From: Nitratifractor salsuginis DSM 16511 | GTDB lineage: Bacteria > Campylobacterota > Campylobacteria > Campylobacterales > Sulfurovaceae | Direction: 5' to 3' | NCBI RefSeq assembly: GCF_000186245.1 | Contig: NC_014935.1 | Span: 1,736,001 to 1,800,000 of the forward strand | Length of the DNA: 64,000 bases | Part shown: in pieces, positions 7,593 through 31,850 of the stretch | Layout of the letters: every line of letters starts with the position of its first letter | How positions within the stretch are numbered: the first letter of the stretch is position 1 | Translations under genes and position numbers: made by a program | Notes under the pieces: model-generated | The model's database searches: none | The model's input: only the letters and a program-made list of their open reading frames with translations | What the model was told of the DNA's origin: nothing

Positions 7593-8191
7593 AGCATCCC
7601 TCCTGTCTTTTTCTCAACCCGGCGCACCAGTTCCTCTGGCGCAGCTTCTTCCAGCTCCGCCAGGATCATCTCGGCTTCACTGTGGCGTACCACCTCTTCG
7701 GCTGGAGTGTGCCAAATCTCGATGAACTTTTCCGCCACCCTCCAGGCGGCGAAGGCGAAAGAGACAGGGATCACCGAATAGGGAATCCACATCGGAATAT
7801 CCAGATCGATAGAGCGCTCATCTAAATCAATCGTCAGAAGGAGATACTGATAACCGTACCAACTCACCGCTGCCAGATAGATGAAAGTAACGAAATGGGA
7901 GAAGAGCATCAAAGCTTTGGCGACTCGGGGGGAGAGCTTTTCCAAGAGGATCGTCACGGCGATATGGGCATCTTCCTTGAAGCAATAGGCCGCCCCAAAA
8001 AAAGCACTCCAAAGAAAAAGATAGACCGTCAACTCTCCTGCCCAGGTGAGAGAAGAGCCGAAGACATAACGCGCCACGACATTATAGAAAGCCAGAGCCA
8101 CTCCGCCGGCAATCCCGATAGCAGCAATGGATTGATTAATCCAACCGATCACCCGACTAATCCAGGCAAAAACTTTCTTAAGAAACTTCAT
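7589..8191 (-). CDS. dctQ: TRAP transporter small permease (DctQ family)
   Basis: Four-TM subunit of the TRAP complex (200 residues). The conserved pattern is visible: hydrophobic AIGIAGGVALAFYNVVARYVFGSSLTWAGELTVYLF with the YVFG..L.WA.E motif, then FFGAAYCFKEDAHIAV and two further helices. A C-terminal extension after the fourth helix is unusually charged (EAEMILAELEEAAPEELVRR), about 40 residues beyond the usual end. Its stop overlaps the DctM start, so the two are coupled. Confidence 0.9.
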   Translation of the reverse strand: MKFLKKVFAWISRVIGWINQSIAAIGIAGGVALAFYNVVARYVFGSSLTWAGELTVYLFLWSAFFGAAYCFKEDAHIAVTILLEKLSPRVAKALMLFSHFVTFIYLAAVSWYGYQYLLLTIDLDERSIDLDIPMWIPYSVIPVSFAFAAWRVAEKFIEIWHTPAEEVVRHSEAEMILAELEEAAPEELVRRVEKKTGGML

Positions 8192-27107: not shown

Positions 27108-27207
27108 TGGGGGGTATGTGATCCTGGTGGACACCGCGGGCTTCAAACCCGATCGTCCGGGCGGATGACCGTCCGGAGGGAGGTTCGATTCCTCCACCCT
27201 CTCGCCA
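27108..27207 (+). tRNA. selC: tRNA-Sec (anticodon UCA)
   Basis: About 100 nt, too long for an ordinary tRNA. The anticodon loop CTTCAAA lies between CGGG and CCCG. A 9-bp variable arm TCCGGGCGG-ATGA-CCGTCCGGA, the T arm GGAGG-TTCGATT-CCTCC, and an encoded GCCA end complete it. The long variable arm and UCA anticodon are diagnostic of selenocysteine tRNA. The acceptor stem is imperfect: GGGGGGT (5') against ACCCTCT gives two G-U pairs, and the outermost pair (T27108-C27203) mismatches. A phage integrase gene follows within 185 bp, so the 3' end is the likely attachment site. Confidence 0.9.
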
Positions 27208-27390: not shown

Positions 27391-28557
27391 ATGGCACGCG
27401 GGGTGGTACCTTTGAGCGATACGAAGATCAGGCAGGCGAAACCTAGAGAGAAACCGTATAAGCTTTTCGATGGAGGTGGGCTCTATCTCTATGTGTCACC
27501 GAAAGGGGCAAAGAGCTGGAGGATGAAATATCGGCATCCGGTAACCAAAAAAGACCAGACCATCACATTCGGCCTCTACCCCGGCATCTCACTCAAACGG
27601 GCCAGGGAGATGCGCGAAGAGGTACGCTCCGCATTGATAGATGGGCTCGATCCCAAATGCCCGGCCGGTGAAGAGGTGAGGTTTCGGGATCTGGCTACCG
27701 AGTGGCTGGATCTGCAAAAGATCGGCAACAAACATAGGCGTTTCCAGCGCGGGCGGCTGGACAACCATATCAATCCCCGGATAGGCGATCTGCCGATAGA
27801 CAAGATCACGAGGCGGGACGTGGCGCGGGTGCTGACGGAGGTCTACGCCGCAGGCAAAGAGGAGACGGCCGGGCGATTGCACTCGATCATCACGTCGGTC
27901 CTGAGATACGCGGTGGCCAGAGGGCTGATCGAGCACAATGTCGCAGCGGATATTGACCGCGCGACCTTGATCCCGCCGCCAGAGAAAAAACACTTGCGCA
28001 CGATCACCAACCCGAAAGAGATCGGGCACTTTGTCCAGGCAGTCAAAGAGTACCCCGGGTATTGGGTCACCAGCCGCGCGCTCCTGCTGCAACTCTACAC
28101 CGCCACTCGACCGGGAGAAGCGCGGGGGATGCGCTGGGATGAGATCGACGGTGATCTCTGGCATATCCCGGCCCATCGAATGAAAATGAAACGCCCCCAC
28201 ACCGTGCCGCTTTCAGTCCCGGCCCGACAGATCATCGAAGAGATGCGGGGATTCTGCGGGGATTCCGAGTTTGTATTCCCCTCCCCTTTTTCCAAGACGC
28301 GGCCAATCAGCAACAACACGGTCAATGTAGCGATCAAGCGCATCGGTTATGGGGACAAGCTCGTCGCACACGGTTTGCGCTCGATGTTCTCGACCATAGC
28401 ACACGAGCAGAGCGGATTCCCTCACGAAGTAATTGAGGCACAGCTGGCCCACGCTACCGGCTCCGAGGTTAGCCGGGCCTACAACCGGGCTGAATACCTC
28501 GATGAGCGCCGCAAACTGGTGGAATGGTGGGCTGGGTGGCTAGAGGGGCTGGCCTAG
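27391..28557 (+). CDS. int: Tyrosine integrase, P4/DUF4102 type
   Basis: 388 residues. The N-terminal arm-binding domain (LSDTKIRQAKPREKPYKLFDGGGLYLYVSPKGAKSW) is typical of tRNA-targeting P4-type integrases. It is followed by a SAM-like core-binding domain (about 95-180) and the catalytic domain with R240 (TRPGEARG), H327 and R330 (HGLRSMF), H354 and nucleophile Y364 (SRAYNRAEYLDERR). AGGAGG lies upstream of the ATG. Position next to selC defines it as the enzyme that integrated this prophage. A diverged copy of its last 100 bp occurs at 29877-29976. Confidence 0.95.
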   Translation: MARGVVPLSDTKIRQAKPREKPYKLFDGGGLYLYVSPKGAKSWRMKYRHPVTKKDQTITFGLYPGISLKRAREMREEVRSALIDGLDPKCPAGEEVRFRDLATEWLDLQKIGNKHRRFQRGRLDNHINPRIGDLPIDKITRRDVARVLTEVYAAGKEETAGRLHSIITSVLRYAVARGLIEHNVAADIDRATLIPPPEKKHLRTITNPKEIGHFVQAVKEYPGYWVTSRALLLQLYTATRPGEARGMRWDEIDGDLWHIPAHRMKMKRPHTVPLSVPARQIIEEMRGFCGDSEFVFPSPFSKTRPISNNTVNVAIKRIGYGDKLVAHGLRSMFSTIAHEQSGFPHEVIEAQLAHATGSEVSRAYNRAEYLDERRKLVEWWAGWLEGLA

Positions 28558-28677
28558 TTGCGACCTCTACCACCCCAAGACTGTAAGCACCCTCCCAAGC
28601 CCCCCCGATCTCTCGGGGCACGATCAAATCAATGTGACCATAGCCGACACAATATAGTCACAATTTGGTCACAGTGT

Positions 28678-28703
28678 GCCTGTATCCTAATCAGGATACA
28701 GGC
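28678..28703 (+). terminator. Terminator after the integrase
   Basis: GCCTGTATCCT-AATC-AGGATACAGGC, a perfect 11-bp stem and tetraloop, 120 bases past the integrase stop. The upstream stretch 28630-28677 holds repeated TGTGACC/GGTCACA half-sites and TAGTCACAATTTGGTCACA, which recurs at 29974. Confidence 0.65.
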
Positions 28704-28762
28704 TCGAAAAGCCAAAACGTCCGCTTTTTTATTGTTTTTCGTGCATTTTGAATGTTTTCCCC

Positions 28763-28791
28763 TTGACATACAGCTCATTTTGAGCTATAAT
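28763..28791 (+). promoter_or_regulatory. Strong promoter P1 of cargo cassette 1, with operator-like palindrome
   Basis: TTGACA (28763-28768), exactly 17 bp, TATAAT (28786-28791): full consensus at both hexamers. The spacer carries AGCTCA-TTT-TGAGCT (28772-28786), so a repressor bound there would block polymerase. Confidence 0.8.
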
Positions 28792-28817
28792 TAGGGTATA
28801 AATAAATTAAAGGAGAG

Positions 28818-29396
28818 GTGATGATGAAGGGAACGATTTGTTACAATGATGATAGAGGGGTCTTCTGCGACGACCCCAAGAGAGCGTTTTGGGCAGATGA
28901 CATGGACGAGGTTGTCATAGCCAAAAAAGAGGATCTGAATCGAGCTGGGTTGCAGGCGGAGGACCTTGGCAGGCTTTCACGTGATGAGATCGACAACATC
29001 ATGATGGAACATGCCATTAACGTAGAAGAATTCCCATTTGAAGGTTATTTTGAAGAGCCAAAAGAAGGGGAATATATCGTGATTTTCACAGACGATAGCG
29101 ATTCTAAGGTCGGGGACGACCCCTATTTCTGGGACTACGACAATATTGGCATCAGATACTGGGATGGATCAAACTGGAAGGAAGAGTTTTTCAATTTCTC
29201 TACTGACGTCGAAATTGTCAGAGAAATAGAGGGAAAAGACGACAGATATTTTGTCGCCCGGGACGGCGATGATTTTTGGGGATGCTACGAGTCTGACAGA
29301 AATTATGGTCCTGCAAGATGTCAGCTCATGAGCAAGTATGACCAGAGTATGAGTGATGAAAATCTGGCTGAGTTGATAGACGCGATTCTTTGGTGA
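28818..29396 (+). CDS. Acidic protein of unknown function, cargo cassette 1
   Basis: 192 residues behind AAAGGAGAGG, read from the consensus promoter P1. Very acidic and rich in Asp, Glu, Trp and Tyr (DDPKRAFWADDMDEV, DDSDSKVGDDPYFWDYDNIG), with no Cys-metal or nuclease motif recognised and no membrane segment. The composition resembles DNA-mimic or anti-defence proteins, which is only a suggestion. It lies between the integrase and a small HTH gene, a position where temperate phages carry accessory genes. Confidence 0.65.
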   Translation: MMMKGTICYNDDRGVFCDDPKRAFWADDMDEVVIAKKEDLNRAGLQAEDLGRLSRDEIDNIMMEHAINVEEFPFEGYFEEPKEGEYIVIFTDDSDSKVGDDPYFWDYDNIGIRYWDGSNWKEEFFNFSTDVEIVREIEGKDDRYFVARDGDDFWGCYESDRNYGPARCQLMSKYDQSMSDENLAELIDAILW

Positions 29397-29453
29397 TATG
29401 AGGATTCGGAAAAAGTTACCCGGGCTTTGCACCCGGTTGGCCCGAAGGCTGAT

Positions 29454-29518
29454 CGCATCCGGGCGGAACGCAATGTTCGCGCGTTTTCGTTCCAAATCCC
29501 ATAGGGAACCCGGATGCG
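29454..29518 (+). ncRNA. Nested inverted repeat upstream of the cassette-1 HTH gene
   Basis: CGCATCCGGG (29454-29463) pairs perfectly with CCCGGATGCG (29509-29518). Inside, GGAACG pairs with CGTTCC. Just upstream a smaller CCGGG/CCCGG structure occurs at 29418-29436. It lies in the 150-nt gap before the HTH gene and may be a structured 5' leader or a small RNA. Confidence 0.4.
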
Positions 29519-29547
29519 TAGCGAAATGATATCAAAAAAGGAGAACT

Positions 29548-29766
29548 ATGTCAAGCCTCATAAAGGAAGTACAAGGGGCTCTCGGTCTTACCCAGATCGA
29601 GCTTGCAAAAAAGATGGGTGTCAGCCCGGCGACTCTACGCCGTTGGGCTGAGGAACTGCCGCCACATGCAAAAGCACACCTTGAGGCACTGCTTGATCTA
29701 TGCAAATGTCAGCAAAAACTATCGAAGTTGACAGAAGCGATACGTATAGTGGAGTCTCACTTGTAG
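29548..29766 (+). CDS. Small helix-turn-helix protein, cargo cassette 1
   Basis: 72 residues. The XRE-like HTH is clear: LTQIELAKKMGVSPATLRRWAE (about 14-35), then a short helical tail. AAAAAGGAG upstream of the ATG. Likely the regulator of its own cassette, perhaps acting on the palindrome in promoter P1 (inference). It ends only about 10 bases before the fused remnants. Confidence 0.7.
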   Translation: MSSLIKEVQGALGLTQIELAKKMGVSPATLRRWAEELPPHAKAHLEALLDLCKCQQKLSKLTEAIRIVESHL

Positions 29767-29775
29767 TATATATGA

Positions 29776-29880
29776 TGATGCCCTTTTACTGCTGCATACC
29801 ACAGCCTCACAGTCCACGGCGGGAAGATAGTCGCTTTGATTTGGTAGCCACACGCTCCATAACAGCCTGGGAACATCGGC
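29776..29880 (-). pseudogene. Remnant of a DUF1353-protein gene
   Basis: Matches two parts of the intact DUF1353 gene: 30821-30863 (TGATnCCC..., GCATACCACA, CTCAC.GTCCACG) and 30956-31017 (AGATAGTCGCTTTGATTTGG, GCTCCATAACAGCC.GGGAACATCGGC), with about 92 bp between them missing. Same orientation as the intact gene. It joins the integrase remnant at the short shared sequence ATCGGC(T/G)CC. Confidence 0.75.
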
Positions 29881-29976
29881 TCCGAGGTTAGTCGGGCCTA
29901 CAACCGGGCCGAATATCTCGATGAGCGCCGCAAATTGGTAGAATGGTGGGCTCAGTGGTTGGAGGGGCTGGGATAG
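29877..29976 (+). pseudogene. Remnant of a second integrase (3' end)
   Basis: One hundred bases matching the integrase 3' end (28458-28557) at about 89% identity and in the same frame, including the Tyr nucleophile region and ending in TAG. Nearly all differences are silent; only two residues change (Gly to Gln, Ala to Gly). It therefore comes from a related but separate integrase rather than a fresh copy of the resident gene. The non-coding TAGTCACAATTTGGTCACA that follows also recurs after the resident integrase (28655). Confidence 0.85.
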
Positions 29977-30066
29977 TCACAATTTGGTCACATTGTGCCA
30001 ACCCCACCAAACAATCCCATATGTTCAGATTTTTTACAATATTTTCCGATTTTATCTGATTTTCAC

Positions 30067-30095
30067 TTGACAAATCCGATTATATAGGATATACT
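30067..30095 (+). promoter_or_regulatory. Strong promoter P2 of cargo cassette 2
   Basis: TTGACA (30067-30072), 17-bp spacer, TATACT (30090-30095). The spacer contains ATCC...GGAT arms (imperfect dyad). Preceded by AT-rich sequence. Same layout as promoter P1 1.3 kb upstream. Between the integrase remnant and this promoter (29977-30066) there is no gene. Confidence 0.75.
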
Positions 30096-30123
30096 ACGGT
30101 ATATAAAGAATAAAGGAGATGAG

Positions 30124-30399
30124 ATGAAACTGATTCGCAATAAAGATCGCCTGGGTTACGGCAAAGAGGACAAGTGGCTTTACCGTGGGTATAAGACTGA
30201 GGACGGGGCCTACTATATCCTCGAAGAGAGCGACGGATACAGCCCCTATATCCATGTCATCCATGCCGAAGACTACCCAAGGATTTATGATGAGTATGGC
30301 AACAAGATCGAGCGTATATCCAAATTCTCGATTGCCAGCGTAAAGGGCGGTTTGAGCGAAGAGCAGGCCCGGAAAGCCTTGAGAAAGGTTGCTATATGA
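30124..30399 (+). CDS. Unknown protein, cargo cassette 2
   Basis: 91 residues after AAAGGAGATGAG. N-terminal two thirds are strand-like and aromatic (GKEDKWLYRGYKTEDGAYYILEESDGY), then a short helical end with LSEEQARKALRKVAI. No family recognised. Its stop overlaps the next start by 4 bases (ATGA), so the two are a coupled pair under promoter P2, a layout seen in toxin-antitoxin or superinfection-exclusion pairs (inference). Confidence 0.65.
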   Translation: MKLIRNKDRLGYGKEDKWLYRGYKTEDGAYYILEESDGYSPYIHVIHAEDYPRIYDEYGNKIERISKFSIASVKGGLSEEQARKALRKVAI

Positions 30400-30815
30400 A
30401 AATCACACAAAAAGACATCGCCCGATATTTCGGGCTTTCCGAAGACACAATCACAAAATGGAAAAAGGGGAGCGTAGAGCAGCAGCGCCGCTACTATGCG
30501 ATGCGTGAATATTACGAGCGCCAGCATCGCGGTTGGGAGATCGACTACCAGAGCGGCAAGGCCACCCATCCCAATATCGTGGTCAAAATCTCAGAAGAGC
30601 CGACCGCTCCATTTCTGATTTGCGACAAGATGGTTTCCCTGGGGTTCGACAAAAAAGACGACGATGGAGTGCGCCATTTTTATGTCGCCCCGCTTGAGAT
30701 TGACAAAAGTCTCTGGAAAGAAGCGGAAAAAGGCGGGGGCAAATCTCTGGCTCGGCTTATGAGTCAGCTTGGGGATGCGTTTGATCTTGACAAGTGGGGC
30801 GCGGCCCATACTTGA
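30396..30815 (+). CDS. HTH-domain protein, cargo cassette 2
   Basis: 139 residues. The N-terminal HTH is ITQKDIARYFGLSEDTITKWKKG (about 3-26), followed by a linker and a second, mixed alpha/beta domain (residues 60-139, ICDKMVSLGFDKKDDDGVRHFYV) with no recognised family. The last 59 bases overlap the 3' end of the convergent DUF1353 gene. Probable regulator of the cassette. Confidence 0.65.
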   Translation: MKITQKDIARYFGLSEDTITKWKKGSVEQQRRYYAMREYYERQHRGWEIDYQSGKATHPNIVVKISEEPTAPFLICDKMVSLGFDKKDDDGVRHFYVAPLEIDKSLWKEAEKGGGKSLARLMSQLGDAFDLDKWGAAHT

Positions 30816-31131
30816 CACGGTGATACCCTCTCACCGCCGCATACCACAACCTCACCGTCCACGCTCCTACTCCCAACCTCCTCAGAGCACGATACAGCAC
30901 ACGATCCGCTCTCTCGTATTCGCCCAGGTCGCACAGGTAATCGTGGAGGACCACCGCCGGCAGATAGTCGCTTTGATTTGGCGGCCAAATGCTCCATAAC
31001 AGCCGGGGAACATCGGCGCCATTGGTGCGGTACCCGGCCGGGACGCTGACCCCCAGCCAGTCAAACGGTTTCAGCAGTTTGTAGCGGTGGCCAGGGAGCG
31101 GGCAGATGTGGAGATTTTCGTAGGGGCTCAC
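30757..31131 (-). CDS. DUF1353 phage protein
   Basis: 124 residues from a GTG start that overlaps the endolysin stop (GTGA). Matches the DUF1353 family found beside phage lysis genes: FDWLGVSVPAGYRTNGADVPRLLWSIWPP, then VVLHDYLCDLGEYERADRVLYRALRRLG with HD and D/E residues that form a likely metal site. Some members are proposed to be lytic enzymes. Last gene of the leftward late operon. Confidence 0.75.
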   Translation of the reverse strand: MSPYENLHICPLPGHRYKLLKPFDWLGVSVPAGYRTNGADVPRLLWSIWPPNQSDYLPAVVLHDYLCDLGEYERADRVLYRALRRLGVGAWTVRLWYAAVRGYHRVKYGPRPTCQDQTHPQADS

Positions 31132-31850
31132 GCTTCCTTGCCTCCCAGCCCGGCGACCCCGTGCCACTCTGCGAGCTCGAAGCTCTCGGGATGGTAGTCA
31201 TCGGGGATGCGAAAATCTATCCATACGTGAGCCGGGTATTTTTTGACACAGACGGCATCGTTCTGGTTGCCTCCCAGGATGTAGAGATATTTGCCGTCAG
31301 GCGTTGCCCCGACGACGAAGCCGACGTGTCCGCCTCCTTTGCGGCTCTTGACCGCAATAGCCCCAAGTACAGGGCGGTGGGCCGACCTTCCGAAATGGAG
31401 CCAGCTTTTGGCTCCCAAAGAGTAATCCGGGATCTGATCGCCATATCCCGCCTGCACCATCACCCAGCCGACGAAACCGGCACACCAGGGGGTCTCGTCG
31501 TCCTTGACCCATTTGCCCCACTTCGTGGCGTGCATATACTCCAGTACGCGCGGGTTGTGGGTCGGGCCGTGAATTTCTTTGACTCCTATCTCTTTGATGG
31601 CGATCTGGAGCCACGTAGGAAGATGCCCCGGCACGTCGGGAGGATGCTCGATCTCCCAGATCGTTTGCCAGAGGGCGCGGTTGTTCACGCTCTTGATAGC
31701 GGCGGCGGTTATCGGACCGAACTCTCCATCGATGGCGATGTTTTTGCCCAGGAGTTTGAGCGCTTTTTGAATCAGCCGGATTTTGTCCTCATCACCCCAC
31801 TCCACGAGTAGACGGCTACCAGGGTTATGGAGCGTTTCGATCAGGCTCAT
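31128..31850 (-). CDS. Endolysin: peptidoglycan-binding domain plus CHAP-type amidase/peptidase
   Basis: 240 residues. The N-terminal part (KIRLIQKALKLLGKNIAIDGEFGPITAAAIKSV) is a PG_binding_1 repeat. The C-terminal domain is CHAP/NlpC-like of the TIGR02594 type, with catalytic Cys in DETPWCAGFVGWVMVQAGY and His in KGGGHVGFVVG. No signal peptide, so it needs the holin at 43045-43401, which is unusually far away. ATG at 31850 overlaps the previous stop (ATGA). Confidence 0.85.
   Translation of the reverse strand: MSLIETLHNPGSRLLVEWGDEDKIRLIQKALKLLGKNIAIDGEFGPITAAAIKSVNNRALWQTIWEIEHPPDVPGHLPTWLQIAIKEIGVKEIHGPTHNPRVLEYMHATKWGKWVKDDETPWCAGFVGWVMVQAGYGDQIPDYSLGAKSWLHFGRSAHRPVLGAIAVKSRKGGGHVGFVVGATPDGKYLYILGGNQNDAVCVKKYPAHVWIDFRIPDDYHPESFELAEWHGVAGLGGKEA

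Follow-up and report, generated by a model that had tools for sequence, protein, structure and literature searches.

The 64,000-nt stretch of Nitratifractor salsuginis DSM 16511 DNA analysed here (hereafter the window) includes the integrase end of a prophage in selC, and the subject of this analysis is the accessory (moron) island that lies there between the integrase gene and a DUF1353 gene of a temperate phage with a sheathed tail. Next to selC (27109-27203), which adjoins this end of the prophage, stands the resident tyrosine integrase gene, int 1 (27391-28557, plus strand; 388 aa; Pfam Arm-DNA-bind_3, Phage_int_M and Phage_integrase), and on the far side of the island lies an intact DUF1353 gene (30757-31167, minus strand; PF07087, 1.5e-16). 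Two small gene cassettes, cargo 1 and cargo 2, are separated by a remnant in which a piece of a second DUF1353 gene is fused to the end of a second integrase gene, int 2; the order int 1, cargo 1, DUF1353 fragment with int 2 fragment, cargo 2 and DUF1353, first proposed in an initial annotation made from the letters alone, is borne out. That annotation was silent on the identity of the cargo and on a 92-bp deletion with frameshift in the DUF1353 fragment, both of which are addressed below; the cassettes that the scar joins weigh more than the scar itself.

The scar is real: remnants of two related phages are fused beside the integrase gene. The DUF1353 fragment of the other phage (29776-29883, minus strand) aligns with the 3' part of the intact gene in blocks of 43 nt (84% identity) and 70 nt (87%), and since the registers of the two blocks differ by 92 nt (1045 vs 1137), the fragment has lost 92 bp internally and is frameshifted. 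The 3' end of the second integrase gene follows on the plus strand (29877-29976), with 29877-29977 matching the end of int 1 (28458-28558) gaplessly at 90 of 101 positions (BLAST within the window, E 2e-32). These alignments agree with the earlier description of 29776-29976 as a DUF1353 fragment joined to the last 100 bp of an integrase gene about 89% identical to the resident one; the addition that nearly all changes are silent was slightly strong, as six of the eight changed codons are silent and two are replaced (G to Q and A to G). Both alignments overlap at 29877-29883, where DUF1353 reads CGGCGCC and the integrase CGGCTCC. A short homology does mark the joint, as had been noted, but the proposed ATCGGC(T/G)CC is too long, the exact word shared with the resident integrase being CGGC. 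A 27-nt repeat beginning ATAGTCACAATTTGGTCACA (plus strand; 28654-28680 behind int 1 and 29973-29999 behind int 2; 96% identity) contains TAGTCACAATTTGGTCACA at 28655 and 29974; its presence behind both integrase ends had been seen correctly, but it overlaps the stop codon of int 2 and lies about 100 nt past that of int 1. The roughly 97 nt between the int 1 stop codon and the TAGTCACA repeat (28558-28653) are missing behind int 2, and the ends of this stretch share TAGT, as if it had been lost by slippage. Spacer 3 of the host CRISPR array matches an integrase gene with an int-2-type end (CTGGGATAG) followed by an int-1-type 3' flank beginning TTGCGACCTC, an int-2-type end that still has the stretch 28558-28653, and this mixture, an independent line of support for the involvement of related phages, points to a further, third one met by the host. 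Taken together, the identities lend good support to a contribution to the locus by two related phages, about 11-16% diverged, and the alignments around the joint support an illegitimate crossover that linked DUF1353 from one phage with int from the other.

Both cassettes consist of an orphan open reading frame (ORF), here a candidate anti-CRISPR (Acr) gene, followed by a helix-turn-helix (HTH) gene, here a candidate anti-CRISPR-associated (Aca) gene, which is the acr-aca plan in a mobile element. In cargo 1, a TTGACA-17-TATAAT promoter (28763-28791; 12/12 consensus positions) with the perfect dyad AGCTCA-TTT-TGAGCT at 28772-28786 is followed by genes for an orphan acidic protein of 191 aa with an isoelectric point (pI) of 4.1 (28821-29396) and for a 72-aa HTH protein (29548-29766; Pfam HTH_3, 5e-7). 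Cargo 2 has a TTGACA-17-TATACT promoter (30067-30095; 11/12) with an imperfect dyad at 30074-30090 and a similar site at 30044-30060, and genes for an orphan protein of 91 aa (30124-30399) and a 139-aa protein with an N-terminal HTH (30396-30815); all of these features are on the plus strand. In both promoters a dyad, the predicted site of a regulator, lies between the -35 and -10 elements. Sigma-70 sites with at least 11 of 12 matches occur only three times in the 64-kb window, all in the cargo (cargo 1, cargo 2 and the minus strand within cargo 1), compared with a mean of 0.35 in 64-kb shuffles, and shuffled cargo regions reached three in none of 1000 trials. A search of 298 genomes of the class and of IMG/VR turned up neither the cargo ORFs nor a close relative of the integrase, and in 50,697 phage records the ORFs of 191 and 91 aa were absent besides the prophage's own copy. 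Convincing relatives of the 191-, 91- and 139-aa proteins were not found, the sole other match of the 139-aa protein covering 62 residues of its HTH region (E 3e-4), and the cargo proteins had no specific match in Pfam, NCBIfam, PHROGs, PADLOC or PDB, none of which is an Acr or Aca database. Judged by gene order, the sequence of ORF and HTH gene fits anti-CRISPR operons but falls short of proof, because toxin-antitoxin modules have the same plan.

The third strong promoter of the cargo (TTGACA-17-TATCAT, 29526-29554, minus strand; 11/12) overlaps the start codon of the 72-aa HTH gene and is predicted to drive an RNA of about 110 nt (29410-29519, minus strand) that ends in a terminator-like hairpin with a T-run (29436-29420). 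This RNA bears TCCCTATGGGATTTGGAAC (29507-29489), which reproduces the stem-loop of the host CRISPR repeat (TCCCTATGGGATTTGAAAT) completely and its 8-nt handle for the most part. The promoter lies 18 nt ahead of the hairpin, and the repeat unit is intergenic with its promoter less than 250 bp upstream, which accords with the criterion for solitary repeats. The similarity to the host type I-B repeat comprises 15 exact nt and 17 of 18 positions, 17 of the following 22 positions agree, in register, with host spacer 57, and the combined 41-nt match (E 5.9e-4 for the whole genome, 2e-5 for the prophage) outscored all 200 dinucleotide shuffles. A closing stem (29518-29508 with 29464-29454; 11 bp counting one flanking pair on each side) encloses the repeat stem-loop and handle, with the spacer-57-like sequence downstream of the repeat part. 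The 63-nt core folds with a z score of -3.55 relative to shuffles, the closing stem leaves the repeat hairpin unaltered, and a UCCC-UAU-GGGA hairpin is present in the folds of both the repeat and the predicted RNA, that is, the stem-loop recognised by Cas6 is kept. A protospacer at the spacer-57-like site would be without TTA, so the spacer-like part more likely stems from a captured repeat-spacer unit or from selection for likeness to CRISPR RNA (crRNA). Outside the array, a 20-nt search with three mismatches found only two repeat matches in the whole genome, this element and a site at the start codon of a chromosomal gene (C1:1899423), the latter put down to chance. No RNA family of Rfam matched, and TTCCCTATGGGATTTGRAAY was absent from the 288 other genomes of the class that were searched.

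A search of the organism's own genome with the region of the scar returned exact matches of 29-36 nt, about 66 nt apart, which are CRISPR spacers. The array (C1:1062730-1066683; L010) has 60 repeats and 59 spacers and lies beside a type I-B operon (cas6-cas8b-cas7-cas5-cas3-cas4-cas2-cas1) with intact reading frames, in which the Walker A, DEAQ, SAT, AGRVNR and HD motifs of Cas3 are present. As many as 20 of the 59 spacers match the prophage with at most five mismatches, 10 of them perfectly, and the closest match among 295 shuffled control spacers had 11 mismatches. The triplet 5' of these 20 protospacers is TTA in 16 cases, TTG in three and TGA in one; this protospacer-adjacent motif shows no clear depletion in the prophage (TTA at 0.51%, against 0.63% in the host DNA that flanks it). 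The leader-proximal, newest spacer (spacer 1) is a perfect match to the 139-aa gene of cargo 2, spacers 21 and 22 match the 191-aa and 72-aa genes of cargo 1, respectively, and spacers 3 and 4 match int. A lysogen that is self-targeted to this extent is viable only when its CRISPR system is inactive or inhibited. Several diverged siblings of the phage have left their record in the mismatched spacers (3, 20, 23, 25, 31, 53 and others). Three more spacers match (91-92%) a second region (C1:1171405-1178363; L088 and L089), possibly another mobile element near tRNA-Asn, and between this region, at 1.17 Mb, and the prophage no DNA similarity was found. Inside the cas operon itself (L009, 2012-2669 and 8254-8547) there are a nucleotidyltransferase-like ORF with a HEPN-like partner and a Phd-like antitoxin ORF.

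When IMG/VR was scanned for exact copies of the repeat core, 24 contigs were returned, 23 of which are non-array contigs with CCTATGGGATTTGRAAY; most solitary matches to the 17-nt core lie inside ORFs and were dismissed as chance. The full hairpin is present in only three of the 23, and in two of these, the prophage and IMGVR_UViG_3300023507_000151 (L106), it lies outside ORFs and is caged by stems of 10-11 bp (null 0.6-1.3%). In L106, where the closing stem has 10 bp, the order is an acidic 81-aa orphan ORF (pI 4.05), the repeat on the opposite strand and a 58-aa HTH gene, and the repeat is preceded by a promoter that is the sole 11/12 site of the contig and directly adjoins the start codon of the HTH gene. 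In other respects the L106 phage does not resemble the prophage: its terminase finds its best match (52%) in another genome of the same order, where terminase and portal have no such cassette between them. The L106 HTH protein resembles that of cargo 2 above shuffles, and the acidic ORFs of L106 and cargo 1 show no alignment above shuffles, so that the two loci have the layout, and not the Acr sequence, in common. This synteny of L106 and cargo 1 is the strongest argument that the three parts may act together, and it concerns two loci only. The third contig with the full hairpin (IMGVR_UViG_3300007987_000156, 8084-8102; L108) was set aside, its solitary hairpin having no closing stem and an ambiguous ORF status; the hairpin stands at a gene boundary beside a strong unrelated hairpin. 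A further contig, IMGVR_UViG_3300003873_000607 (L109), is filed as viral and carries, from 9243, a 31-repeat array whose repeats likewise end in TCCCTATGGGATTTGAAAC.

Several known systems resemble parts of this locus. The predicted RNA shares with RNA anti-CRISPRs (Racrs) such as RacrIF1 and acrIC5-racrIC1 (PMC10651486) the position of a solitary repeat mimic in an intergenic region of a prophage, a strong promoter of its own, a retained stem-loop, a host with the matching CRISPR subtype and an adjoining candidate acr gene. Unlike in those Racrs, only the stem-loop and handle are copied here (about 60% of the repeat), the mimic lies within a closing stem of 10-11 bp and between a candidate acr and a candidate aca gene, transcribed opposite to both, and a segment resembling a host spacer comes after it. 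The protein genes recall the acrIF1-aca1 and acrIF8-aca2 operons, in which Aca1 and Aca2 bind inverted repeats overlapping the -10 and -35 elements (PMC8434428): an orphan ORF precedes an HTH gene, a strong promoter carries an inverted repeat over -35 and -10 and, as at acrIF8-aca2, cargo 2 has two similar dyads, whereas no match to a known Acr or Aca sequence was obtained with the libraries used and the function proposed here is that of candidates. AcrIB2 of the Clostridioides difficile phage phiCD38-2 also acts on a type I-B system (PMC10732046), and Xanthomonas albilineans, like this host with its 20, has very many self-targeting spacers (24), which led to anti-CRISPR proteins (PMC10810201); inhibition was measured in both of those cases, whereas the present proteins are candidates without relatives of the cargo in the collections searched. 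In work on phages from the related genus Nitratiruptor, a self-targeting spacer was reported and an anti-CRISPR was not found (PMC9723563).

From the computed sequences, gene order, promoter matches, predicted folds, self-targeting and independent copy of the layout, we infer expression, Cas binding, CRISPR inhibition and an order of events that together make up our best reading, to which we give a probability of roughly 0.6: the locus would be a stacked anti-CRISPR island built by recombination, including a Racr-like RNA gene of new layout. In phage A and in phage B, one cassette each would have stood where int and DUF1353 converge with their 3' ends, and a single crossover that joined DUF1353 of A to int of B within a few homologous bases would have stacked both cassettes and left the fused remnant. 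The cassettes would most likely serve to disarm the type I-B CRISPR-Cas system of the host. Upon infection, transcription from the strong promoters would supply the orphan proteins along with the RNA, which would present the Cas6 stem-loop and 5'-handle inside its closing stem and may compete, in the fashion of Racrs, with pre-crRNA and crRNAs for Cas6 and possibly for parts of Cascade; the HTH proteins would then damp their own promoters through the dyad between -35 and -10. The most specific part of this proposal is held tentatively, at slightly less than even odds: that the RNA from the minus strand works as a type I-B RNA anti-CRISPR of new design, with a caged Cas6 hairpin and handle, a promoter over the start codon of a regulator and a place between candidate acr and aca genes on the other strand, in a cassette that recurs in an unrelated phage and that, to judge from the scar, can be stacked by recombination.

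Several observations weigh against this proposal. The layout was matched in one other contig only, and the repeat match spans only the 3' 60% of the repeat. For a full match SRUFinder requires 90% or more of the repeat to align at no less than 90% identity, and its bit-score cut-off is 41.1; here 18 of 31 repeat positions align, at 94% and 29.2 bits, the score of 43.7 bits counting the spacer-like sequence too. The active product of RacrIF1 lies upstream of the Cas6 cut, and with only about 12 nt preceding the hairpin the mechanism here cannot equal that of RacrIF1. Because it falls below the published detection thresholds, and because RacrIF1 acts through RNA upstream of the cut, the predicted RNA is by analogy Racr-like and not a plain member of the group. 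The candidate Acrs are unlike every family and PDB chain searched, and their single-sequence AlphaFold models are poor (predicted local distance difference test scores, pLDDT, of 53 and 57); the HTH proteins are generic, with relatives of the 72-aa one in ordinary phage regions. In addition, something other than the cargo could keep the host CRISPR system silent, and the protecting gene could lie outside the cargo, in another part of the prophage or of the genome.

Among other functions that might be assigned to the cassettes, that of toxin-antitoxin or superinfection-immunity modules is suggested by the order of ORF and HTH gene, which suits HigBA and MqsRA too, and by weak matches of the HTH proteins to antitoxin families; the first ORFs, however, match no toxin family, and the repeat-mimic RNA in cargo 1, its counterpart in L106 and the 20 self-targeting spacers indicate CRISPR, which leaves this explanation unlikely. 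It is more improbable still that the likeness to the repeat arose by chance in a host whose CRISPR system is simply inactive. The chromosomal site returned by the 20-nt search illustrates that one such chance match does occur in the genome, but the prophage E value and the shuffles, the element's own near-consensus promoter and terminator, the caged layout in L106 and the intact cas genes all speak for more than coincidence. A guide role, in which the RNA sends Cascade to a partly matching host or phage promoter in the manner of CreA and does not act as a decoy, has the lowest probability that we assign. The ectopic degenerate mini-CRISPRs of CreTA/creA modules reportedly encode a small RNA engaging Cas proteins of type I (PMC9458426, PMC8501985), and the ectopic degenerate repeat and predicted small RNA of cargo 1, with stem-loop, handle and spacer-like sequence in register, resemble them. 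In contrast to those modules, the present element is phage-borne beside candidate acr and aca genes, and neither a toxin promoter target nor a second repeat was found: no TT-flanked seed target stood above background in the cas region, the prophage, the flanking host DNA or genome-wide, and a second repeat is absent downstream.

As for the route by which the stacked island arose, the initial annotation had envisaged that selC once held two related prophages in tandem, and that a deletion running from the DUF1353 gene of the first prophage into the second one's int dropped one set of structural genes. Its two related phages stand. The tandem arrangement, with which the order and identity of the remnants (int-DUF1353 | int-DUF1353) and the single pair of attachment sites, attL and attR, flanking the prophage agree, the latter being expected after such a deletion, strikes us as possible but rather doubtful: a search within the locus found no trace of a middle att site, although the deletion would have removed it, and one crossover between molecules yields the same joint with no tandem intermediate. 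Neither parent was found in any relative, and the predicted phages with cargo 1 or cargo 2 alone behind int are lacking from the 298 genomes of the class and from IMG/VR. We regard as probable a recombination between a related infecting phage and the prophage, or between co-infecting phages, which would stack the cassettes and may well have used a phage annealing system, since the prophage encodes a RecE-like exonuclease, an Erf-like annealing protein and SSB, and since the host spacers record several diverged siblings, one of them (spacer 3) with the mixed integrase end and flank. The donor phage is absent from the databases searched, and sequence alone does not separate this route from the tandem one; either leads to the same functional outcome, two anti-CRISPR-type cassettes in one phage.

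To our knowledge, few type I-B anti-CRISPRs have been measured so far. With 20 spacers aimed at its own prophage, the host allows a direct test of each candidate inhibitor at the locus, the two proposed Acr proteins and the RNA. The stem-caged layout on the opposite strand, seen in two unrelated phages, offers a rule by which to look for RNA anti-CRISPRs overlooked by repeat searches that rely on thresholds, and the scar illustrates how anti-defence cassettes may be stacked at the integrase end through crossovers between related phages.

The prophage as a whole measures 39,166 bp. Its attR, a 24-nt copy of the selC 3' end, lies 39.2 kb off at C1:1802326-1802349, beyond the window, and selB and selA come after it on the chromosome. 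The genes for a tail sheath, portal, terminase, capsid/protease and CI identify the element as a temperate phage with a contractile tail, and at its right end (L011, 2616-4254) a DNA methyltransferase gene and an AlpA/excisionase-like gene stand just ahead of attR.

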